Origin: a virus
Virus record (IMG/VR): IMGVR_UViG_3300000115_000066
Location: 1-27,776 of that record
DNA: 27,776 nucleotides
Reading direction: 5' to 3' (one strand)
Position numbers and translations under genes: made by a program. Positions 7,663-27,776 of the stretch are shown here, one piece after another. The first letter of the stretch is position 1, and every line of letters begins with the position of its first letter. Below the pieces are notes generated by a model. That model was not told the origin of the DNA, did not search any database, and saw nothing but the letters and a program-made list of their open reading frames with translations.

Positions 7663-7680
7663 ATAAAAAGTTCCACGTTA
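7663..7680 (-). promoter_or_regulatory. TGGAACT element, copy 1 (candidate late-gene signal)
   Basis: On the minus strand, CGTGGAACTTTTTATT begins at the TerL stop and lies about 40 bp upstream of the portal ATG. A close relative, CATGGAACTTTATT, occurs at 10612-10628 upstream of the whole late block. The GGAACTT core resembles the -35 element of extracytoplasmic-function sigma factors. I see no convincing partner -10, so the call is tentative. Confidence 0.25.
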
Positions 7681-9156
7681 TGATATTTTCCAACTTATAT
7701 CATCTACATGATTAAAGTCTAGGTTTTTCTTTTGTGCTTTTTCTACACTTTTATGATGAGGTACAAAACATTTTTTCATAGCATAAAATAAACCATCCAG
7801 TAAATCATCGTGCTTTCCACGAGGATATAACAGCAACTCATCTTTTAGTTCTTCCATTGATTTTAGCATAAACATTTTCTTTTGAGCAAAGTAAGGTTGC
7901 ATTGTTTCTAATCGTGAAGATTTACTTGTACGTGGATTTTCTTTTATCTCTAATCCTGATATAAATATTTTTTCTTCATCACATCGTTGCTTTAAGTACT
8001 CTCGTAGCATCTCTTGATAGCCGACACTCTCTACTCGCACTTTTACTGGTTTAAATAGCTTAAAGTACTCAATAATACTTTCTGCTAGTTGCATAGGGGT
8101 TGCTCTCTGGCGGTAATACTGGAGAATATACCTATTGTTGTTTTCGTCTACTGCTACAGGCATGATTACAGAGTAATCTGCTGTCTTGCGTACCGAAGAA
8201 GCTGGATCAACCCCCATGAACACATTGACAGGGATTTCTTTTTCCCCATCGGTTAAATAATGATTATCTGAGCTATCAATCTTTAGCGTATAATCATGAT
8301 ACTGGATATAAGACTGCTGAAACAATTGATCTTCATCTCCAACAATTTGACACATGTACTCTCTGTAAAACACAGAGGAACGTCCAATAGATTCCAGTTC
8401 TCTTTTCTTTTGTAATAATTTATCAATAGGTTGCCACTCTTCCCACAAAGCTTTCTTTTTATCTAAGTCAGGACTAAAGTGCATGTTTACCCAACCTTCC
8501 ATTTGTTTTAATATTTCTACTAAACATCGCTGGTGCTGAGGAGTACCAATAACAATAATCTTTCCTTTTTGCGGATCTAAAGAAGGAACAGCACTCTGTA
8601 GCAACCAACGAAGATTTTGCTCCATTGCTTCTGCTGTTTTAGTATTATTCTCATCTTCAGGATCATCTACAATAATAAGAGTAGGGCGTTGGCTACCTAC
8701 TTTAATACCACGAAGCTGTTGGCCTGTGCCTTTACAAATAATCATAGACCCATCTTTTAGCTCTATCTCTGTCTTTGACCATTGCTTTGCACTATGTTGC
8801 CCCCAATATCCGTAGACCTGTCGAAAAGTTTCTGAGTACTCTATTGTATCTTTTATTGTACCCAATAGCTTAATCGCATGATCTTGGGTTCTAGACACTA
8901 ATACAATAAGTTTTGCCCCACTGTCATTCATAATATGGAATAAAGGATATACACCTCCAACGATAGAGGATTTAGCGTGACCACGTGGGGCAATAATGTT
9001 TACTTGTTTTTGAGAGTGGTCTACTAAAGACTCTGCTATTTTGTAATGAAAATCAGGGGAAGCAGCAGAAAACATATTAGACATAATTACTTTTCCAAAC
9101 ATAATCATGTTTTTGCTTAATTTCTTTTTTATAAAGTCTTGGTCTTTTTTTGCCAT
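7678..9156 (-). CDS. terL: Terminase large subunit (TerL)
   Basis: This 492-aa protein is the ATPase-nuclease motor that packages DNA into the prohead. The ATPase part shows an unusual Walker A, APRGHAKSS, at 56-64 (Lys62), Walker B LIIVDDPEDE at about 160-169, and the coupling motif IVIGTPQHQ at about 201-209. The RNase H-like nuclease shows the expected acidic residues: FMGVDPASS (Asp317), VRVESVGY (Glu376) and KHDDLLDG (Asp450, Asp451, Asp454). All key residues are present, so it should be active. It ends 53 bp before the portal gene and starts 2 bp after a 50-aa protein. ATG at 9154-9156 follows a run of A/G-rich leader. Confidence 0.97.
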   Translation of the reverse strand: MAKKDQDFIKKKLSKNMIMFGKVIMSNMFSAASPDFHYKIAESLVDHSQKQVNIIAPRGHAKSSIVGGVYPLFHIMNDSGAKLIVLVSRTQDHAIKLLGTIKDTIEYSETFRQVYGYWGQHSAKQWSKTEIELKDGSMIICKGTGQQLRGIKVGSQRPTLIIVDDPEDENNTKTAEAMEQNLRWLLQSAVPSLDPQKGKIIVIGTPQHQRCLVEILKQMEGWVNMHFSPDLDKKKALWEEWQPIDKLLQKKRELESIGRSSVFYREYMCQIVGDEDQLFQQSYIQYHDYTLKIDSSDNHYLTDGEKEIPVNVFMGVDPASSVRKTADYSVIMPVAVDENNNRYILQYYRQRATPMQLAESIIEYFKLFKPVKVRVESVGYQEMLREYLKQRCDEEKIFISGLEIKENPRTSKSSRLETMQPYFAQKKMFMLKSMEELKDELLLYPRGKHDDLLDGLFYAMKKCFVPHHKSVEKAQKKNLDFNHVDDISWKIS

Positions 9157-9311: not shown

Positions 9312-9526
9312 TAAAGATGATCTGTAATAAAGGTATCATAGTAATAACCAGATGTCTCCATTTCTTTCAAGGCATCAATAGCTACTGTAGACATAAACGC
9401 AGGATCTCCTTCATGCATCACAGCAATTACGTGTAATGCTCGTACTGCTATTTCAATTTGCTCGTGAATAAGATTATTCTCGTCTAAGCCTTCGTATTCG
9501 TTGTCTATATCACTCGGCTGGTTCAT
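9311..9526 (-). CDS. Small acidic protein between TerS and TerL, unknown
   Basis: This 71-aa protein starts MNQPSDIDNEYEGLDENNLI, an acidic disordered leader. A helical core with EIAVRALHVIAVMHEGDPAF and a short tail follow. Its start overlaps the end of the TerS-like gene by 17 bp, and its stop overlaps the next start as TAATG. Small acidic proteins between the terminase genes are common in phages, but none of the families I know fits securely. Confidence 0.65.
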   Translation of the reverse strand: MNQPSDIDNEYEGLDENNLIHEQIEIAVRALHVIAVMHEGDPAFMSTVAIDALKEMETSGYYYDTFITDHL

Positions 9527-10283
9527 TTGTTTCTGATTTCCGTTGTAAGGTTACCTTTTTCTCTTCTTTGGCTATAGTATCTGCTATTTGTTTCGTAACA
9601 TCTACTTGAACTGTGTCTGTAATCATTTGTTTGTTTGGCTTCATCTCTAATAAGTCCATTAGATAGTCATTTGCCTTTAAAAAATTGTTTACATCCCCTT
9701 TGTCTTCTGCCATTGCTAATGCACGTACAATATTATCTAGTGCAAATTCTTTGTTAATAGATTTATCGTGCAGTAATTCTTTAATTTTCTTTTCAACCAT
9801 GCGTTTTGTCACTTTTTGCTTGAGGAATCTTCGGACGGTGGCTGCTGGAGTTTGTTGGTTAGGTCTATAGATTTGTCCAAGAACATTAAAGTCAACCGCA
9901 TTGCTCCCCAATAGCATATTTGCGTAAGCATTAACAGTATTTTTACTCCTCGTTTTACCATTTTCTTCCTCATCCCATGTTCGTTTAGGGTTTGTTTTAC
10001 TATATACTCCATATTCGTGATTTACCAAAAAATTTATTTTAGAAAAACTAGAATCCCATCCTACTCCACACGTAAGCTTAATAAACGTTTTAACGTGTCC
10101 AGCTTTATCGGTATAACTCTTGCGGTCAAAACATTCAGATACGTAACCATCATCTGTTAACGCCCATTCTCCTACCTCTGCTTGTTTCCAAGGCACGTAT
10201 TGAATCTTTTTTGCTGATGCCTCTTCCTTGCTGTATACAGGGTAATGATTTGTTTTTCCTTTAATTTTTCTTTTTATTTTCAC
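9510..10283 (-). CDS. Putative terminase small subunit (TerS)
   Basis: The 257-aa protein precedes TerL in the packaging block, the usual place of TerS, the DNA-recognition subunit. The basic N-terminus (MKIKRKIKGKTNHYPVYSKE) is followed by a 100-residue domain that could bind DNA. From about 160 a helical region (RMVEKKIKELLHDKSINKEF, then ALAMAEDKGDVNNFLKANDY and LLEMKPNKQ) resembles the central oligomerisation helices of TerS proteins, with a C-terminal tail that would contact TerL. It is longer than most TerS (about 150-200 aa). No ribosome site is obvious, and a 12-bp palindrome lies 3-14 bp before the ATG. Alternative: another DNA-binding late protein. Confidence 0.65.
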   Translation of the reverse strand: MKIKRKIKGKTNHYPVYSKEEASAKKIQYVPWKQAEVGEWALTDDGYVSECFDRKSYTDKAGHVKTFIKLTCGVGWDSSFSKINFLVNHEYGVYSKTNPKRTWDEEENGKTRSKNTVNAYANMLLGSNAVDFNVLGQIYRPNQQTPAATVRRFLKQKVTKRMVEKKIKELLHDKSINKEFALDNIVRALAMAEDKGDVNNFLKANDYLMDLLEMKPNKQMITDTVQVDVTKQIADTIAKEEKKVTLQRKSETNEPAE

Positions 10284-10285
10284 AA

Positions 10286-10330
10286 GTGTAGCTACACTAC
10301 CATATAGCTATATGTTAGTATACTATATGG
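10286..10330. promoter_or_regulatory. Palindrome cluster in front of TerS
   Basis: Within 45 bp lie three perfect palindromes: GTGTAGCTACAC (10286-10297), CATATAGCTATATG (10301-10314) and TAGTATACTA (10316-10325). CCATATAG (10300-10307) also pairs with CTATATGG (10323-10330). A TA-repeat follows at about 10333-10346. The first palindrome covers the place where the TerS ribosome site should be. Candidate roles are an operator for a late repressor, a translational hairpin, or part of a cos/pac packaging site, which often lies by terS. Confidence 0.5.
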
Positions 10331-10351
10331 TTATATATATATATACTATTA

Positions 10352-10561
10352 TTAATCCATACTCTTTTTATCAGAATGATCTACTCCAATCTGCTGAGCT
10401 ATAATCTTTGATACGATTTCATACTCTGCTTCAATAGCTTCTAAGTTCTTTTCTTGGTTATTCAATATATCTTCATATTGGTTTTCTGTCATAGTCTTCT
10501 GCTCCCACTTGCCAGTATTGACATTCAGTACTTCGTATTCTCTGTTACGTTTTTTATCCAT
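10352..10561 (-). CDS. First gene of leftward late block, unknown
   Basis: The 69-aa protein begins MDKKRNREYEVLNVNTGKWE and consists of a short beta start followed by a long charged helix (NNQEKNLEAIEAEYEIVSKI), so it may dimerise through a coiled coil. It is the first leftward gene after the divergent control region, which could suit a regulator or a terminase-associated protein. There is no strong ribosome site. It is separated from the TerS-like gene by the palindrome cluster. Family not recognised. Confidence 0.6.
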   Translation of the reverse strand: MDKKRNREYEVLNVNTGKWEQKTMTENQYEDILNNQEKNLEAIEAEYEIVSKIIAQQIGVDHSDKKSMD

Positions 10562-10994
10562 GTTCTACTTTAAGTTAATATTGCTATCTATATTAATACA
10601 ATGATTTAATTGGAATAAAGTTCCATGTACTCCTTTAGAAAGTTATTTTAGAATGTGAGTGGAAGGAACATGTTACATGGTACCCCCTATGTTTTGGGTT
10701 GCACGTTACTTATTAGGTTGAGTTGACTTTTTTAGTTCCACTTAACTACTGGGTGTAAGCGAGCTTACCCTAAGAGCTACATTTAACCCACCCTTACGAT
10801 CCTCGTATCTTACCCCTGCTCATACTTCGCAGCCGATACAGAGTGATCATTTACACTTTATGCGTATACACGCACGTAAGTATCTACTAATCCATACACA
10901 TCTACCATGTACATGCACACATATTACCACTTACAATACGCTTCCTTTATCTCTGATAATACAATAAGTATTACAACTTAACAAAGGAGCAAAA
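10562..10994. promoter_or_regulatory. Divergent control region (433 bp, no gene)
   Basis: No convincing reading frame exists here, and genes diverge from both ends, so it should hold the promoters for both blocks. Seen: TGGAACT on the minus strand at 10619-10625 and 10734-10740; an inverted repeat CCATGTA (10623-10629) / TACATGG (10674-10680); a hairpin GGGTGTAAG-CGAG-CTTACCC (10751-10770) with a 2-nt bulge; a TTGACT hexamer at 10723-10728 without a good -10; and, before the first rightward gene, CTTCCTTTAT (10941-10950) followed by GATAATAC, a possible -10. The stretch 10745-10940 is less AT-rich than the surroundings. Promoter positions are guesses. Confidence 0.55.
10612..10628 (-). promoter_or_regulatory. 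TGGAACT element, copy 2 (candidate late promoter)
   Basis: Minus-strand CATGGAACTTTATTCC lies about 55 bp upstream of the first leftward gene and matches the element at 7663-7680 in the core TGGAACTTTNATT pattern, allowing a 2-nt difference in the T-run. A third TGGAACT sits at 10734-10740. If it is a -35-like site, the following AT-rich stretch would carry the -10. Confidence 0.3.
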
Positions 10995-11255
10995 ATGGTA
11001 ATCGAATTTACTGATATATCAACTGGCAATGTAACTGGATACAATAAAATATATGTTTATGCAAAGGATTATAGTGAGGCTACAGAATTGCTTAGAAAAC
11101 AATTTCCATTTGTAATTAACGAGTACAATTACGATGAAGAAACTGGCGAAGACCAATACTCATGGCAAAAGCTTGAAAAGATATATCCTCATATGTATGC
11201 AAGACCAAACTACTTAATCATCAATAACCCTCATCAAACAAGGAAGAAAAAATAA
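10995..11255 (+). CDS. First early-block protein, unknown
   Basis: This 86-aa protein starts MVIEFTDISTGNVTGYNKIY and looks like a compact alpha/beta domain: two strands, a helix with SEATELLRKQFPF, then strands and a polar tail ending in KKK. The ribosome site AAAGGAG lies 6 bp before ATG. It opens the rightward block after the divergent control region, so it is likely expressed at once on infection. First-expressed small phage proteins often act on host enzymes, but nothing in the sequence names a target. Its stop overlaps the next ATG as TAATG. Confidence 0.75.
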   Translation: MVIEFTDISTGNVTGYNKIYVYAKDYSEATELLRKQFPFVINEYNYDEETGEDQYSWQKLEKIYPHMYARPNYLIINNPHQTRKKK

Positions 11256-17503: not shown

Positions 17504-17776
17504 ATGAAAAAGCCAACTGTAAGTCACATTATTAAAGAATGGTTGAGTAACAGATTGGAAAGTGGTATAGATACAGTGGCATCCCACGAAATCGAAACTA
17601 CATTAGTCGAGTATGGCAAAGAGTATTGGGGGAAACAACATTCCCCTAGTACTTGGAGCAGAGCTTGGAGAACATTAAAAGCTGGAAACGAACTCGATGA
17701 AATAGATGTTACGTCCATTGAACCCATTAACACTGAAAGTGCGGAGACTACATGGAGAATAAAAACTGGTACATAG
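17504..17776 (+). CDS. Small putative winged-helix protein
   Basis: The 90-aa product starts MKKPTVSHIIKEWLSNRLES and has three helices with SHEIETTLVEYGKEYWGKQH, then SPSTWSRAWRTLKAGNELDE, and a strand at the end (TTWRIKTG). Helix-helix-helix-wing is the order of winged-helix DNA-binding domains. There is little ribosome site; the start lies 2 bp after the SSB-like stop, which suggests coupling. Its end overlaps the primase-helicase start by 25 bp. The wHTH reading is tentative. Confidence 0.6.
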   Translation: MKKPTVSHIIKEWLSNRLESGIDTVASHEIETTLVEYGKEYWGKQHSPSTWSRAWRTLKAGNELDEIDVTSIEPINTESAETTWRIKTGT

Positions 17777-21028: not shown

Positions 21029-21244
21029 ATGGAATATTATAAACCTAAAGAAAATTGGTTATTAAAAGGAGAAGTACCAGAAAAAAGAAAAAAAAGTAAT
21101 AAGAAGTACACATTAAAATATTGCATTAAATGTGAAAAAACATGGGAAATAGATTGCACTAAAACGACAATGAGATATGGAAGCTTACCTACTTATGGAT
21201 TAAAAAGAAAAACTTGTAAATATTGTAAAAAGGAAAACAAATGA
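21029..21244 (+). CDS. Zinc-knuckle protein
   Basis: The 71-aa product starts MEYYKPKENWLLKGEVPEKR, with a basic linker and a metal-binding half: CIKC (about 32-35) and CKYC (about 63-66), plus Cys43. CxxC-x27-CxxC is a zinc-ribbon spacing, and the flanking Lys/Arg-rich stretches (KRKTCKYCKKENK) would suit nucleic-acid binding. Its end overlaps the AbrB-like gene as ATGA. It might be a transcription factor of the early block. This is inferred. Confidence 0.7.
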   Translation: MEYYKPKENWLLKGEVPEKRKKSNKKYTLKYCIKCEKTWEIDCTKTTMRYGSLPTYGLKRKTCKYCKKENK

Positions 21245-21402
21245 ACATTGCAAAATTAAAAATAGACAAAAGAGGAAGAATAAGTCTTCCACTTCAATTT
21301 CTAAAAGCTAACAATATAATACCAGATGAGGTTGAAGTAGTAATTAAACCAACTAATTCTGATTTTATAAAACTATATTTTGACAAAAAGGAGAAAAAAT
21401 GA
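21241..21402 (+). CDS. AbrB-like (SpoVT/AbrB) DNA-binding protein
   Basis: This 53-aa protein, MNIAKLKIDKRGRISLPLQF at the start, shows the swapped-hairpin pattern of AbrB/MazE DNA-binding domains: strand KLKID, turn RGRISLP, strand, then EVEVVIKPTNSDFIKLYF. Known relatives bind DNA as dimers, as transition-state regulators or as antitoxins. No toxin gene is adjacent, so a phage regulator is more likely than a toxin-antitoxin pair. It starts in the zinc-knuckle gene (ATGA) and ends in ATGA with the membrane peptide. A close promoter operator cannot be pointed out. Confidence 0.7.
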   Translation: MNIAKLKIDKRGRISLPLQFLKANNIIPDEVEVVIKPTNSDFIKLYFDKKEKK

Positions 21403-22184: not shown

Positions 22185-25100
22185 CTAATTTAAATACTCT
22201 TTTATTTCTCTACGTTTTCTGTTCTCATCTTTCATTCGTTTGATTCTGCTACGAACTTGTTGATTAGGTAAACGTAATAATATTTCAGGTGCACGCTCTA
22301 AACCACGTTTTGGTCTGTCATCTGCTAATTGTTTAATTTGCCTAATACCTCTACCAAATGGTAACATAGTATACATAGTGTAATTAGTAAAGTCTTCTAC
22401 GTTTCCTGTAAGCAGTTCTCCAAACGCTTCTGGAACTCTTGCAATAGGTGGTTTAAGGACGTTTAGTGGGCCAAGTTTAGAATCAAAAAAAGCCATTTCT
22501 TTTTCTTTCTTGTCTCCAAATGTATAATCAGCTAATGCTTGTACCCAATCCCAAGGTGGTGGTAATGTAGTGTCAAATAAACTAAACATAAACGCACTAC
22601 CTAGTGCATACATAAACATATCTATAGCAAAAGTATCTTTGAATCTATTGTACGATTCACTTCCTTCTCTAAAACCATTTAACTTTGCTTGTCTGTAAAA
22701 TTCTTTACGCATACGAATACTATTAAATACAAATAATTTAAACCTACCTAATACTTTACCAGTAGACGTTCTCATAAAAGCAGGTCTTGCTGCATTTTGA
22801 TATAAAAACTGTGTCATTTCAATACCACGTTCAGCACGTTCAAATACATATTGATCAGCTAATGATAAATCTTTACCAGCTTCTTTAAATCCTTCTACTG
22901 CTTGCATACCATGAGATATAAATGCATTTAATCTATTAACACGTTCACTTTGTTTCATTAAGTATCCACCAGCATTAAGCATTACATCTGAAACACCGTA
23001 ACGTTTAACAACTTCACGAACACTCTCGTCACGATTTCCTTTTTTACTTTTAGCTGCTTTAATAAAATCACGCTGAAAATCTTTTATGTTAACACCTACA
23101 TTCTTTAATTGAGTTTTTAAGCCTTCATTATATTCAAACTCGTTTTTAATATAGTTCTCTATAACGCCACGTTCTTCTAAATATGTCATTAACTCTTTAC
23201 GATTCTTAACAAACTCTCCATTAAATAATTTTAATACAGGTTTACCTTTAGAATCAGAAAGTAATGTTCTATATACTCGATCATTATTAAAAGAGTTCAT
23301 ATAATTTTTAACACCAGCACTACCTACAGTCATTGTAGCACCACCAAATATATTAGTAGACCACGTTCCAGTATTTGCTAGTAAACTAAGTAATTGGTAT
23401 TGAGCTTCTAATCTTCCAAGATTATGAATCTTTCTACTAAAATACTCTTTTCTAGCTTCTCCATCTTTAGGAACAGCTTGATTGTCAAAGAAAGATATTT
23501 TCTTTCCTTTGCCTAATTTTTTTTGATACAACTTTTCTAATTGTTTAATCATTACAGCATCTGAAGTAACATAATGCATGTTCTTTTTATTAAGGTGTAA
23601 TAATTGTTTTCCTTGAGAAGTTAACATTTTTTCACTATAAAAAGACTGAAATCCTAATGCATCTCTAGCATATAGCCTTACATAATCTGTCCATACATCT
23701 TTATAGTCTTTATAGCGTAAACTTTCAGGTATAGCACCAGCACTGCCTTTATATAAGCTTTTAAAATATTTTTCTTCTTTTGTACTTGGTTTGTATTCAA
23801 AATTATTTACTAATAAATCAATTTCATTTTGAGCTTTTAGTTTTAAAATATTTTTAAAATATCCAGAAATTAAATTATTTTGATAATCTATTATAGAATC
23901 AAAGCTACGTTTATAAGGAGAATTACCCTGTGCAAGAAACGGGCTTTCAAACATTTTATTTACACTAAGATTAGATTCTCCTTTTATAGGAGTAGAAGAT
24001 GCTATATCTATTACATCATTTAAATTAAAAAATGGATTATTCTGTTCCATACGTCTCGCTAATCTTAAATACTCTGCTTTAGGTAGTGTTTTCTTTTGCT
24101 CTGCTAACCATTTTATTTGCTCCAATAATAACTTTTCATTAGAATTTTTAAAAGAATGATGCATAAACGTTTCATATTTACGTGGTACAAACATGTCAAA
24201 TTTGTTATCAGCTCTGTATTTTTCACGATACGCTTTTGCATCTTCTGGTTTATCATGCTTCAATGATTTTTCTAACTTATATTCATAACGATAACGTAAT
24301 ACTCCTTCTATACCAACATCTTTAATTATATTTTTAGTTTGTTCACGAGCATTTATAACTTCACGTTCAAATGTTTTAAAATCAAATTTACCATTACGAT
24401 CATATTTAATATATTTGTTAACATTTTCATACTTAAAATCTTTATCTATACTTGACCAATTAAATCTTTTGCTATTACTTTTTGTAGTAATCCATTGATT
24501 TTCTTGCTTTATCCAAAAGTCTGTAGTTTCATTATTAAACTTTTCAAACTTTACTCTGTTTATTTTAGGATCAAGTTTATTTAATGTTATTTCACCTTCT
24601 CTAAGTTTAAATATATTTTCCATATACAACTTTTGTTCTGCTATAGACAACTGACTATGTATTTGTTCTAACTTAGCACGTTCTACATGAGAAGTATTTT
24701 TATATCGTTCTGATCCTGCTTCACTTTTTTTAGCAGCATTAGCAATTTTACCAACAGGAGAAACTGCTACTTTAACATTTCTTTTAACAAAACCTTTACT
24801 GGTTTGTACTGGAGCATTAATAATTGTATGGTAACTATTAAACATGCCTTTTGCTACCATTTTTTCGTTTATAGTTTTAGGGTGTACATACCAATTACTT
24901 AATTTAAAATCTAATTCTTTATTTGTATTTATAGATTCTAAGTATCTATTTACCATACGTATGCCATTAATATCTAATGTAGTAGCATCTTTAGCTATAT
25001 AATTCTCACTGTTGTTTAAGGTAAATCCTTCATACCATTGGTTAAAATCTTTTTTCATTTCTGGATGCACATCAATTGCAGATTGAAACTTTTTAATTTC

Positions 25101-27776
25101 TTTAAGGTCACCTTTAAATAAAGCCAATCCTTCTAAACTTTTGTTACGAATAGCATCGTTTATTTTTGTTGTAAGCTCTCTGCCTTCTGCAATAGTAGTT
25201 TCATTCTTAACAGCTTCTATATCAGCTTGTTTTATATCTAAACTACCTTCCATTTTCATAGCACGATCATAAATAGTATCCATGCGTTGATAAAATGTTT
25301 TTTTAGCAGCCATAGGTATCATAGGTGAACCATGAATTAATTTATTATATTGAGGTTGGTTTACGCCTTTCTGTAATTCACGTATAGGACTTAACAACCA
25401 ATAATTAAAATAATCCTGCAACATCCCTTCAGGCAATTTTTGAGCAAGTTCTAATTGTAATAATTCATTTTGAGTCTTTACTATTTTAGCATCTATATCG
25501 TTATTAAGAACATTGTCTCTTTCTTTTTTATTAGAAAGTTTATCTGCTAATCGCTTTACTTCATAAGCTCGTTCTTTTATCTGAGGAATAAATTCAGAAA
25601 CACTATTAACATTTTTATTTTGTTTTGCAAATTCTGTTTGGACTTTAACATACTGGTCTGATAACAATTCTATAGTAGCGTATTGACCAAGTTCTTTACC
25701 AATAAAATCTAATCCTTCTTCAATCTTTTTTGTATCACCCTTAAACAATTCTTCTATTCTTTTAGGAGTTGCAAATGAAAGCTCTTTAGCAATTATTTTA
25801 TAAAAATCTTGCAATTCCTTAGAAGTTACATTGTTTCTTATTTCAAAATTTCCTTCAATATTTTTAAACAAACCATTAGGAGATAATATATTTTCATATA
25901 ATACTCTTTGAGCATTTTGTAAATTTTTAAACTGATATGATTCTTTATCAAAACCTAAACGTTGCATTTCAAATTGTATTTTAGGATTTGTAGAATTAAT
26001 ACCTTTTGTTTTTTCTAGTATTCTATTTGATGAGTCTACTAATTCTAAAGCTTCAAATAAAGTTGGAGCCTTACGATTACCTTCATTGTCAAATATTTTT
26101 TGATGAGGTTTTACATTGTCGTTAGATATTTTCAATGCTTCAAATGCAGTGCCTTTAGCCATCTTCATAAAGTCTGTATATTTAATAAACTTTTTATTAT
26201 TTACTTCAAAAATAGAATTAAACAAAGTATCTCTGTATGTATTGTATGCTTTTAAATTAGGATCCTTACTGGCATCCGCTGATACGTTAACAATCTTAGT
26301 ACCTAAATCTAAAAAATGTCTATGGGCACTTATGCTTGAATCAGGTGATTGAGTCCGTAACGTTACTTTATGCTTACCAAAAGAAACCCTACCGCCATTT
26401 GCTTGTACATAATCATACATATTTTGCATTGCAATTTTTGCAGATAATCCGTATCCTAATCCTTGTTTACCTGTTGCAGAATTTCTTGCTGCTTCAAAAC
26501 GAAAACTAGGCGAAAACATCATAGCTTTATTGTTATTATAATCTTTAACAGATATTTCTGGTAGGTTTCCTTCAAACATTTTGTCTATCATTATTTGATA
26601 GTCTGACTTAGAACCGTTTTTATTAAACCAGTGACTTCTTTCCTTAGATACGCTTTCAAAATGTTTTATAACTTCTTTGTTTATGTTCTGAAATATTTTG
26701 ATGCTGTCTGCATCTTTGTCTGCTCCACCAAGATAGATGTTGTCTTTGTGATGGGTGAAAGAACCCGCCCCTTTCTGATTTGTAAAACCTCTGAATCGTA
26801 ATTTACGAGTACCAGACATCGAGTCAGCTGGTGTACGAATAGCAAGCAAAGTAAACACGTCATTCCACTCTGCCTTAGTTGGAGTTTTAACACCTTCAGG
26901 CATGGGTTCTTTCCCAGTATACATATCCCAAATCTTGCCAAGAGTGTATCGTTCACCGAACAATACCACAGGCATTTCTCGAAAACCGTTGTCAAGATAT
27001 ATTTCCCCCTCTTTCAAAGTTCTTGGAGACCATTCATTAATAAGCTTAACTAATCGAACTGCATGGCTATCTTTTGCTTCAGGTTTAAAATAACCTAGGG
27101 GTCTACCAGATAATTTTCCAGATCTAATATCGTTTAATATTACATCTCTTTTATCTGGCATATATCCTTTGTCAGTTTTACCCCTTAACCAACTTTCGTA
27201 TCTTTCTATAGCTTCTTTTGTGCTCCCAGTTCTTATAAATCTTTTATTTTTATAATAAGATGGACTCTTATCGTAAACAGAGGGTATGATAAAAGGGTTT
27301 CCATACTTAGAGCCCCTCATTATATTTATAGAATTTGCTGAATCAGGCTTTACTATAGTGGTTTGAGTAATAGAATAAGGATCTATGTCAGCATAGTTTA
27401 ACATCTCAGGTCTATAACCCTTTAACCAAGACTTACCAGCAGTTTCAATATGAGGATTAGACATACGTTTTGTTACGTATTTACGCAATGCGTTAAAATA
27501 ATTGTTTTTATTAAACGTCATAGAATGTTTTGCTACAAACGTTCCTTCTAATGCATTAGCCAATAATCTATTTACATCATGATATTCTCTAAATGCAGAA
27601 TCTGAATCAAATTCAAAAGATTCGTTTGCAGTTTTTTCTAACTCTCCTTTTAAATCTAATTTCATTAACCTATCAGATAAAAACTTTCCTATTGGAGTAT
27701 CAGGCTCTACTGTTAATTTTTCTAATACAAAATCTAAAGGTAGTTCTTCTAACTTCAATTCTGCTTTTTCGTATTC
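22185..27776 (-). CDS. Giant polyvalent internal virion protein (5' end beyond window)
   Basis: The frame is open from base 27776 (no start seen; a TTG at 27758 need not be the start) to a stop at 22185, giving 1863 codons before the stop. Counting from the TTG codon: residues 146-243 resemble DUF4326 (RGSKYGNPFIIPS, later GRPLGYFKPEAKDSHA), but the usual Cys residues of its C-terminal motif are replaced. Residues 301-356 (LLAIRTPADS, then LGGADKDADSIKIF) look like the catalytic barrel of two-barrel RNA polymerases with Asp347, Asp349, Asp351. A long Lys-rich helical middle follows, then GKVLGRFKLF (about 1667-1676) and one membrane helix (about 1712-1728). Size, multidomain make-up and membrane segment fit an injected polyvalent protein. 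A convergent stem-loop ends the transcript. Confidence 0.85.
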   Translation of the reverse strand, partial: EYEKAELKLEELPLDFVLEKLTVEPDTPIGKFLSDRLMKLDLKGELEKTANESFEFDSDSAFREYHDVNRLLANALEGTFVAKHSMTFNKNNYFNALRKYVTKRMSNPHIETAGKSWLKGYRPEMLNYADIDPYSITQTTIVKPDSANSINIMRGSKYGNPFIIPSVYDKSPSYYKNKRFIRTGSTKEAIERYESWLRGKTDKGYMPDKRDVILNDIRSGKLSGRPLGYFKPEAKDSHAVRLVKLINEWSPRTLKEGEIYLDNGFREMPVVLFGERYTLGKIWDMYTGKEPMPEGVKTPTKAEWNDVFTLLAIRTPADSMSGTRKLRFRGFTNQKGAGSFTHHKDNIYLGGADKDADSIKIFQNINKEVIKHFESVSKERSHWFNKNGSKSDYQIMIDKMFEGNLPEISVKDYNNNKAMMFSPSFRFEAARNSATGKQGLGYGLSAKIAMQNMYDYVQANGGRVSFGKHKVTLRTQSPDSSISAHRHFLDLGTKIVNVSADASKDPNLKAYNTYRDTLFNSIFEVNNKKFIKYTDFMKMAKGTAFEALKISNDNVKPHQKIFDNEGNRKAPTLFEALELVDSSNRILEKTKGINSTNPKIQFEMQRLGFDKESYQFKNLQNAQRVLYENILSPNGLFKNIEGNFEIRNNVTSKELQDFYKIIAKELSFATPKRIEELFKGDTKKIEEGLDFIGKELGQYATIELLSDQYVKVQTEFAKQNKNVNSVSEFIPQIKERAYEVKRLADKLSNKKERDNVLNNDIDAKIVKTQNELLQLELAQKLPEGMLQDYFNYWLLSPIRELQKGVNQPQYNKLIHGSPMIPMAAKKTFYQRMDTIYDRAMKMEGSLDIKQADIEAVKNETTIAEGRELTTKINDAIRNKSLEGLALFKGDLKEIKKFQSAIDVHPEMKKDFNQWYEGFTLNNSENYIAKDATTLDINGIRMVNRYLESINTNKELDFKLSNWYVHPKTINEKMVAKGMFNSYHTIINAPVQTSKGFVKRNVKVAVSPVGKIANAAKKSEAGSERYKNTSHVERAKLEQIHSQLSIAEQKLYMENIFKLREGEITLNKLDPKINRVKFEKFNNETTDFWIKQENQWITTKSNSKRFNWSSIDKDFKYENVNKYIKYDRNGKFDFKTFEREVINAREQTKNIIKDVGIEGVLRYRYEYKLEKSLKHDKPEDAKAYREKYRADNKFDMFVPRKYETFMHHSFKNSNEKLLLEQIKWLAEQKKTLPKAEYLRLARRMEQNNPFFNLNDVIDIASSTPIKGESNLSVNKMFESPFLAQGNSPYKRSFDSIIDYQNNLISGYFKNILKLKAQNEIDLLVNNFEYKPSTKEEKYFKSLYKGSAGAIPESLRYKDYKDVWTDYVRLYARDALGFQSFYSEKMLTSQGKQLLHLNKKNMHYVTSDAVMIKQLEKLYQKKLGKGKKISFFDNQAVPKDGEARKEYFSRKIHNLGRLEAQYQLLSLLANTGTWSTNIFGGATMTVGSAGVKNYMNSFNNDRVYRTLLSDSKGKPVLKLFNGEFVKNRKELMTYLEERGVIENYIKNEFEYNEGLKTQLKNVGVNIKDFQRDFIKAAKSKKGNRDESVREVVKRYGVSDVMLNAGGYLMKQSERVNRLNAFISHGMQAVEGFKEAGKDLSLADQYVFERAERGIEMTQFLYQNAARPAFMRTSTGKVLGRFKLFVFNSIRMRKEFYRQAKLNGFREGSESYNRFKDTFAIDMFMYALGSAFMFSLFDTTLPPPWDWVQALADYTFGDKKEKEMAFFDSKLGPLNVLKPPIARVPEAFGELLTGNVEDFTNYTMYTMLPFGRGIRQIKQLADDRPKRGLERAPEILLRLPNQQVRSRIKRMKDENRKRREIKEYLN

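Follow-up and report, generated by a model that had tools for sequence, protein, structure and literature searches.

Clade-specific palindrome arrays before the small-terminase gene in a family of phages as candidate packaging-initiation sites

Introduction

In a viral record of the IMG/VR database, a cluster of short palindromes lies directly before the predicted start of a gene for a small-terminase-like protein (TerS), which raises the question of what reads it. By what means a small terminase recognises its own genome is described as still unclear in the available passages of PMC9611059. The original prediction for this locus allowed for either a packaging site or a late operator near terS and named AbrB-like and helix-turn-helix (HTH)-like phage proteins as possible binders besides TerS. 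Here, we analysed the window, i.e., the whole stretch of 27,776 nt (positions 1 to 27,776 of the 39,859-bp record IMGVR_UViG_3300000115_000066), together with the rest of the record and a set of relatives.

Results

The palindrome cluster in the window

The minus strand of the window carries, in this order, a 69-aa ORF, a 68-bp gap, a 257-aa ORF for the small-terminase-like protein, two small ORFs, and the genes for the terminase large subunit (TerL) and the portal protein. The palindromes lie in the gap:

10285 to 10298, minus strand: perfect palindrome AGTGTAGCTACACT of 14 bp, 1 nt away from the terS start codon
10301 to 10314, minus strand: perfect palindrome CATATAGCTATATG of 14 bp, the array motif of clade A, to which the window belongs
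10316 to 10325, minus strand: palindrome TAGTATACTA of 10 bp, forming with the 8-bp inverted repeat a third, degenerate unit
10300 to 10307 with 10323 to 10330: 8-bp inverted repeat CCATATAG/CTATATGG, read from the sequence
10332 to 10345, minus strand: (TA)7 tract, separating the array from a conserved element (see below)

The predicted GTG start of terS at position 10283 of the minus strand bears out the position assigned to the cluster, directly before the gene. Palindromes of 12, 14 and 10 bp and an 8-bp inverted repeat had been proposed; those of 14, 10 and 8 bp are present as described, while the one given as 12 bp is 14 bp long. The (TA)7 run falls just beyond the interval of 10286 to 10330 originally assigned to the cluster, and its place is taken in many relatives by an AT-rich stretch with a TATATAA-like word. 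The 50-bp segment with the highest palindrome density of the entire record coincides with the cluster, (TA)7 included, with 41 of its 50 bases lying in palindromes of at least 10 bp, compared to a maximum of 33 per 50 bp in 60 dinucleotide shuffles of the record. Likewise, a local test over 120 bp gave 38 of 46 bases in palindromes, whereas the maximum in 2000 shuffles was 28 (the observed value being reached by none of them). The usual ribosome site is missing, as predicted: none of six Shine-Dalgarno (SD)-like tetramers searched for occurs 4–13 nt before the GTG codon. A search of the window against Rfam at gathering thresholds gave no match.

Arrays of changing sequence at the same place in relatives

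Relatives were collected by TerS searches of IMG/VR, taking at most 80 loci per search among the matches listed, from up to 184 relatives. After removing duplicates, the sample comprised at least 67 distinct upstream sequences including the window (66 and one added later). Because the relatives were collected via terS, arrays without terS could not have appeared among them. The TerS proteins encoded beside the arrays are about 59–100% identical. Inspected by eye, the gap before terS is AT-rich and contains short inverted repeats in 67 of 67 distinct upstream sequences. Fourteen of 18 representatives exceeded 95% of shuffles, 11 of them by palindromic coverage and three that failed this test by inverted-repeat coverage; the remaining four (L124, L132, L146 and L160) showed neither palindrome nor inverted-repeat content above shuffles. 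In nine of the ten records scanned, several of them partial and the window's included, the array is the densest palindrome cluster of its record, the exception being the 10.9-kb record G018.

The sequence of the array varies by clade, and we sorted the arrays into six types, using regular expressions set up after the sequences had been inspected and assigning type G by hand:

Type A: CATATAGCTATATG
Type B: ATTACTAATTAGTAAT or ACTACTAATTAGTAGT
Type C: ATTACTATATAGTAAT
Type E: GTTACTnnnnAGTAAC
Type F: based on AGTACT
Type G: based on GTAGCTAC

Most dyads of clades A, B and C have a self-complementary centre as well, and in one member of clade B (G012), two 16-bp dyads together form a single perfect palindrome of 34 bp; clade E keeps the dyad arms and varies the centres. 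The dyad symmetry is thus largely retained while the array sequence shifts between clades. One 6-mer recurred within the array more often than in 95% of shuffles in six of 17 cases (L011, L027, L029, L048, L125 and L146), the window not being among them. Across six long records, the array motif was not enriched elsewhere. A constant layout with a group-specific mirror sequence would fit sites evolving together with their reader protein, for which the packaging protein is the likeliest candidate. No description of such arrays was found among the matches listed in the literature searches, which covered open-access text, titles and the openings of abstracts.

Some contigs of the sample are unusual in themselves. 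In the 45,606-bp contig G014 (loci L076 and L077), terS aligns only from residue 62 (L059) and the array is offset, which may reflect a frame break or an assembly error at the terS start; the L076 row entered the shuffle and codon tests with this offset or broken N-terminus and an uncertain register. The contigs of L094 (88,986 bp) and L166 (73,241 bp) are far above the approximately 44-kb unit of the other relatives and may represent dimers, chimeras or a larger genome.

The dyads as probable double-stranded DNA sites

The inverted repeats could also act as hairpins in the leader of the terS mRNA, and the folding energy is indeed low in most arrays tested. However, RNA folding of the 18 representatives lacks any strand bias, with mean z-scores of −2.78 for the sense and −2.79 for the antisense strand, which stand out from shuffles equally on both strands, as expected of double-stranded DNA sites. 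Single mismatches compatible with G-U pairing are slightly commoner on the sense strand (30 vs. 20 on the antisense strand), which would suit hairpins and amounts to no clear bias. The constant arms and variable centres of clade E likewise resemble hairpin stems and loops, but the self-complementary dyad centres of clades A, B and C are unneeded in a hairpin loop. On balance, mRNA hairpins are the least probable of the explanations weighed here, and we regard them as scarcely credible.

Covariation was analysed in 12 aligned arrays of clade A. Four of 21 dyad pairs are altered on both sides, which shuffles reach in 6 of 500 cases, and the covariation score of 0.061 (vs. 0.026 ± 0.008) was reached by none of 500 shuffles, a control that the relatedness of the sequences can inflate. 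After sliding the pairing by three columns, the score was 0.062, though only 35% of the cells were paired compared to 87% in the unshifted register. As for further pair types, 102 of 500 shuffles reached the observed level, and four of the 21 pairs are broken in five to seven of the 12 sequences.

A near-invariant element and its second copy upstream

On the side away from terS, the array is bordered by a second type of signal, for which the window shows the following features:

10352 to 10364, minus strand: proximal copy of the conserved element, GAGTATGGATTAA, which overlaps the 3' end (codons Ser-Met-Asp-stop) of the 69-aa ORF
10352 to 10561, minus strand: conserved 69-aa ORF just upstream of the array
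10887 to 10899, minus strand: distal copy of the element core (GTGTATGGATTAG) in a noncoding divergent region
10352 to 10899, minus strand: interval between both element copies, a putative direct terminal repeat as suggested by the pairing, the homology of TerL to that of phage N4, and PMC3896407

The array is flanked in all 67 sequences by GAGTA(T/G)GGATTA(A/G), an element that reads GAGTATGGATTAA at the end of the 69-aa ORF in 55, GAGTAGGGATTAA in 11 and GAGTATGGATTAG in one of them. After dropping one of 66 rows with a truncated ORF, its serine codon was AGT in 65/65, its aspartate codon GAT in 65/65 and its stop codon TAA in 64/65 cases, whereas the remaining well-covered conserved residues of the 69-aa ORF with several possible codons use two to four codons each. 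This single-codon usage indicates that the nucleotide sequence itself is held constant. Each of nine records contains exactly one copy of AGTA(T/G)GGATTAA. The shorter core GTANGGATT(A/T) has a second copy on the same strand 434–576 bp upstream in all 59 sequences whose flank extends to 760 bp or more, a pairing found in 80 of 11,800 shuffled segments. Its variable base is matched between the copies if it is G in the near one (G in the far copy in 10/10 cases), and a near T is accompanied by a far T in 27, A in 18 and G in four cases. Besides the pair, six long records contain zero to three further scattered core copies, and ten more records, which overlap with the 59 sequences, all contain the pair and again zero to three other copies.

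Paired elements on the late strand ahead of the late genes could also be late-promoter elements, with the array as a downstream regulatory region and no role in packaging. AT-rich words following many of the copies and the conserved blocks in the noncoding leader between them would suit such promoters, but no −10/−35 boxes were recognised by eye at a fixed distance, and the distance between the element and TATATAA varies by approximately 8–9 bp across clades. Sigma-70-like sites are not in excess in the window either (six vs. a shuffle mean of 4.3, sd 2.1). Family searches named no RNA polymerase among the ORFs searched of the record, which may be incomplete and includes ORFs of 1857 and 997 aa without a clear family. 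We consider late promoters distinctly improbable.

The tandem repeats beside a (TA)n tract also recall the iterons and AT-rich unwinding tract of a replication origin, and in three records the cumulative GC skew passes through a local minimum no more than about 1.6 kb from the array. However, a change in transcription direction at this place also turns the skew, the array adjoins terS rather than helicase or ERF genes, and no initiator was recognised, making an origin a very remote prospect.

Two further observations concern the surroundings of the distal element. An alignment of the noncoding leader between both elements (window positions 10570–10897, minus strand) with 11 other records (L011, L022, L030, L033, L041, L045, L048, L116, L132, L142 and L146) shows invariant or nearly invariant blocks amid variable sequence, namely AACTCAAC, a G-run followed by TA, CTCAC.C.CA.TCT, GTA...GGAAC and TTAA.TTAA, possibly reflecting a late leader RNA or a terminal-repeat function. 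On the early strand, upstream of window position 10995, several of ten relatives have a conserved word ahead of the distal element (CCATAGATAAAGGAAG and variants, as read on the late strand). This word may mark the early promoter region. The 1857-aa ORF (22185–27758, minus strand) is matched over much of its length in five long relatives, and its own family match is weak and limited to a short stretch (phrog_464, DUF4326).

The small-terminase-like protein

The candidate reader of the array is encoded just behind it:

9510 to 10283, minus strand: 257-aa small-terminase-like ORF with an N-terminal beta domain (residues 1–76) and an HTH region (108–174)

With two small ORFs in between, its gene precedes terL and the portal gene, the place of a terS gene upstream of terL in a packaging module. 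Matches of the protein to family libraries are weak or unnamed. Its sequence and that of the L049 homologue gave no match in INPHARED by tblastn, a pattern search of genome contigs gave 71 matches with no relative among them, and no match was obtained by a PDB sequence search. Two AlphaFold2 models with modest pLDDT values of 68.4 and 66.8 contain a confident beta domain (1–76) and a helical HTH region. A Foldseek search of the PDB gave no match at E ≤ 0.001, which says little about families missing from its list; phBC6A51 was listed at E 4.3 only and rose in a later structural alignment, and matches in BFVD named terminase small subunit had E-values of 0.018 or weaker. In both models, the HTH region (about residues 105–174) aligns to phBC6A51 (2ao9) with Z-scores of 7.9 and 8.3 over 62–63 residues, and in the second model only to the small terminases of an SPP1-like phage (3zqq, Z 5.5) and PaP3 (6w7t, Z 4.6); these are middling values, and below the top match unrelated folds score alike. 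The protein from pHBC6A51 is counted among the small terminases in the available passages of PMC11331095. Because three of the structural matches are small terminases and the gene lies where one is expected, we call the 257-aa protein TerS, its HTH being predicted to have a small-terminase fold. It shares this fold at residues ~105–174 with the proteins of phBC6A51, the SPP1-like phage and PaP3, but differs from them by an additional beta domain of about 76 residues at the N-terminus, and the aligned parts are only 6–8% identical.

PxATVRRFLKQ, a segment of the HTH, scarcely changes despite the variation of the array, which makes a classical HTH reading of the array unlikely; the variable N-terminal domain of TerS would have to recognise it. 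The column that best tracks the array type is residue 77, just after the invariant CGVGW. In 33 sequences, it ranked first among the 346 variable columns of TerS, TerL and the 69-aa ORF, with a normalised mutual information (NMI) of 0.94, and in 59 TerS sequences first of 132 columns (NMI 0.86). The first of these column analyses and the tree analysis were restricted to 33 and 38 rows, respectively, incomplete and near-identical rows having been removed; of 66 rows, 57 were complete in the former. Residue 77 is not a clean code: E arrays go with G (12), C (3) or A (1) and G arrays with V (3) or A (1), and V is common to types B and G. On the TerL tree, the array type changes six times and residue 77 seven times, mostly between clades, so that shared ancestry can explain their association. 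One locus with an F-like array and C77 (L045) stands apart from the other F members on this tree, and the array distance correlates with TerL (0.510) as well as with TerS residues 1–76 (0.506). The link of residue 77 to the array type is suggestive rather than conclusive.

A possible operator for another regulator

The main rival of a packaging site, and a serious one, is a plain transcriptional operator. A regulator other than TerS, from the phage or the host, would occupy the dyads and prevent transcription or translation of terS and the late operon from starting. In favour, the 5' end of terS lies under the array, and an SD-like tetramer precedes terS in only 16 of 67 upstream sequences, 51 being without one. 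A dyad spacing of 16–18 bp is typical of cooperative repressors, and several small conserved phage proteins are candidate regulators. However, repressors usually control their own gene as well, the array motif is not enriched at other places in the six records, and the paired invariant elements would be left unexplained. The two proteins originally named as binders fit poorly: the AbrB-like ORF (21241–21402) has a match in none and the HTH-like ORF (17504–17776) in only one of five long relatives (39–48 kb, some incomplete), all of which contain the array, whereas matches to TerS, TerL, portal and capsid are present in 5/5. As no match was found in most of these relatives, neither is likely to be its general binder. 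Altogether, we judge an operator alone to be rather unlikely. The AbrB-like ORF codes on the plus strand for a 53-aa AbrB/MazE-like protein that matches PF04014 with an E-value of 0.017, short of the family cut-off, occurs only in this record among nine scanned by motif pattern, and has no recognised partner.

The large terminase and possible genome ends

The paired elements may be related to genome ends, which leads to the remaining genes of the packaging module:

7678 to 9156, minus strand: terminase large subunit (phrog_38), of a family that also matches gp68 of phage N4
5399 to 7624, minus strand: P22-like portal protein, by family match

TerL of the window matches phrog_38 with an E-value of 1.8e-83 and N4 gp68 does so with 6.1e-106; the two proteins are homologous, with 23% pairwise identity (E 2e-24). 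As 707 phage records match TerL, the match to phrog_38 alone is not specific. In N4, gp69 and gp68 point leftward close to the right end, from which gp69 is separated by three small genes of rightward direction, and the early genes are read rightward starting at the left end; gp69 matches a family without assigned function. The early and late genes of the window's family diverge at an N4-like junction, where the elements bracket 434–576 bp. The available passages of PMC3896407 and PMC3670811 give terminal repeats of 390–440 bp for N4 (PMC3896407), direct terminal repeats of 397–1,120 bp for other N4-like phages and about 1,974 bp for phiJA1. The interval between the elements is thus of fitting size for a direct repeat of 0.4–2 kb. 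The record itself, with 39,859 bp, is much smaller than the approximately 70-kb genomes of the Schitoviridae. Members of that family also have an RNA polymerase encapsulated in the virion, for which the ORFs of 1857 and 997 aa may still be considered in the window's record.

Long contigs of relatives show permuted gene orders, with shifts of about 42.5–45.7 kb, which fit headful packaging, terminal repeats or concatemers alike. The ends of 50 contigs do not cluster at either element, and an assembler could pass through a terminal repeat; since they are spread over distances of 57 to 5780 bp upstream of terS, contig ends were rejected as a terminus marker. Neither array nor element was found at the corresponding place in N4 and three records matched by the capsid protein, one of which (CRP-810) has a lone 14-bp palindrome there, and the segments compared around two mapped ends of IME11 have no common word of six bases. 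The terminal-repeat reading accordingly draws on layout, size and pairing. A motif placed by PMC3670811 at both ends of the phiJA1 repeat had been considered as a precedent for two flanking copies and was dropped, because the stretches of the phiJA1 record covered contain it once, at the 3' end.

Discussion

We propose, tentatively and with slightly less than even confidence, that packaging of this phage starts at a site whose recognition array is the palindrome cluster. The TerS protein encoded just downstream would bind the tandem dyads, bend or load the AT-rich DNA next to them and place the large terminase at GTA(N)GGATT(A/T). TerL might then cut at both copies of the element, which would turn the 434–576-bp interval into a direct terminal repeat as in N4-like phages; this is the weaker part of the proposal, and the paired elements are candidate repeat ends by their layout, size and pairing. 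With the array extending over the 5' end of terS, TerS bound to it would also repress its own gene. The array would thus probably be the TerS-binding part of a packaging site that overlaps and represses terS. Of the two possibilities raised originally, which are partly supported, the packaging site gains from the position, the lack of motif enrichment elsewhere in six long records, the paired element and the small-terminase-like HTH. The AbrB-like and HTH-like binders named with them fit poorly.

A more specific version is doubtful. Here, TerS would read the dyads via its N-terminal beta domain, with residue 77 and its neighbours co-evolving with the array, and the invariant element would mark the TerL cuts at both repeat ends. 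The family would then be a natural series of specificity-switched packaging sites, related phages not packaging each other's DNA. A symmetry-marked putative site at a fixed place, in six sequence types beside related TerS proteins, offers ready-made swap experiments. If the paired element does bound a terminal repeat, the genome ends of uncultured family members become readable from sequence alone.

Among known systems, the cos site of phage lambda is laid out as cosN, R sites and terS. In HK97, as proposed for the window, cut site and TerS site lie within tens of bp, the 15-bp TerS site beginning 15 bp from the cut; the available passages of PMC11331095 describe no tandem palindrome array there. 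TerS sites described in the literature passages covered are not palindromic arrays.

The N4-like phages (Schitoviridae) resemble the window's family in having a TerL of phrog_38 and in the terminase and early genes flanking a similar junction. They differ in genome size (70 kb in N4 vs. about 44 kb), in the three extra genes of N4 between gp69 and the right end, and in the corresponding stretch of N4 lacking both an array and GTANGGATT.

A close parallel is the pac region of SPP1, whose terS gene is reportedly self-repressed. As proposed for the window, the recognition region of SPP1 (pacL-pacC-pacR) overlaps the promoters, ribosome-binding site and start of terS, with the TerS protein gp1 binding pacL and pacR and TerL cutting between them in pacC (PMC6316719, available passages). 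SPP1 is a headful phage, however, and the same passages describe neither family-wide, clade-specific dyad arrays nor a second copy of the cut element. Our best reading of the locus is a bipartite packaging site similar to SPP1 pac as described there, in which a near-invariant element would serve for cutting or positioning and a fast-changing dyad array for recognition by TerS.
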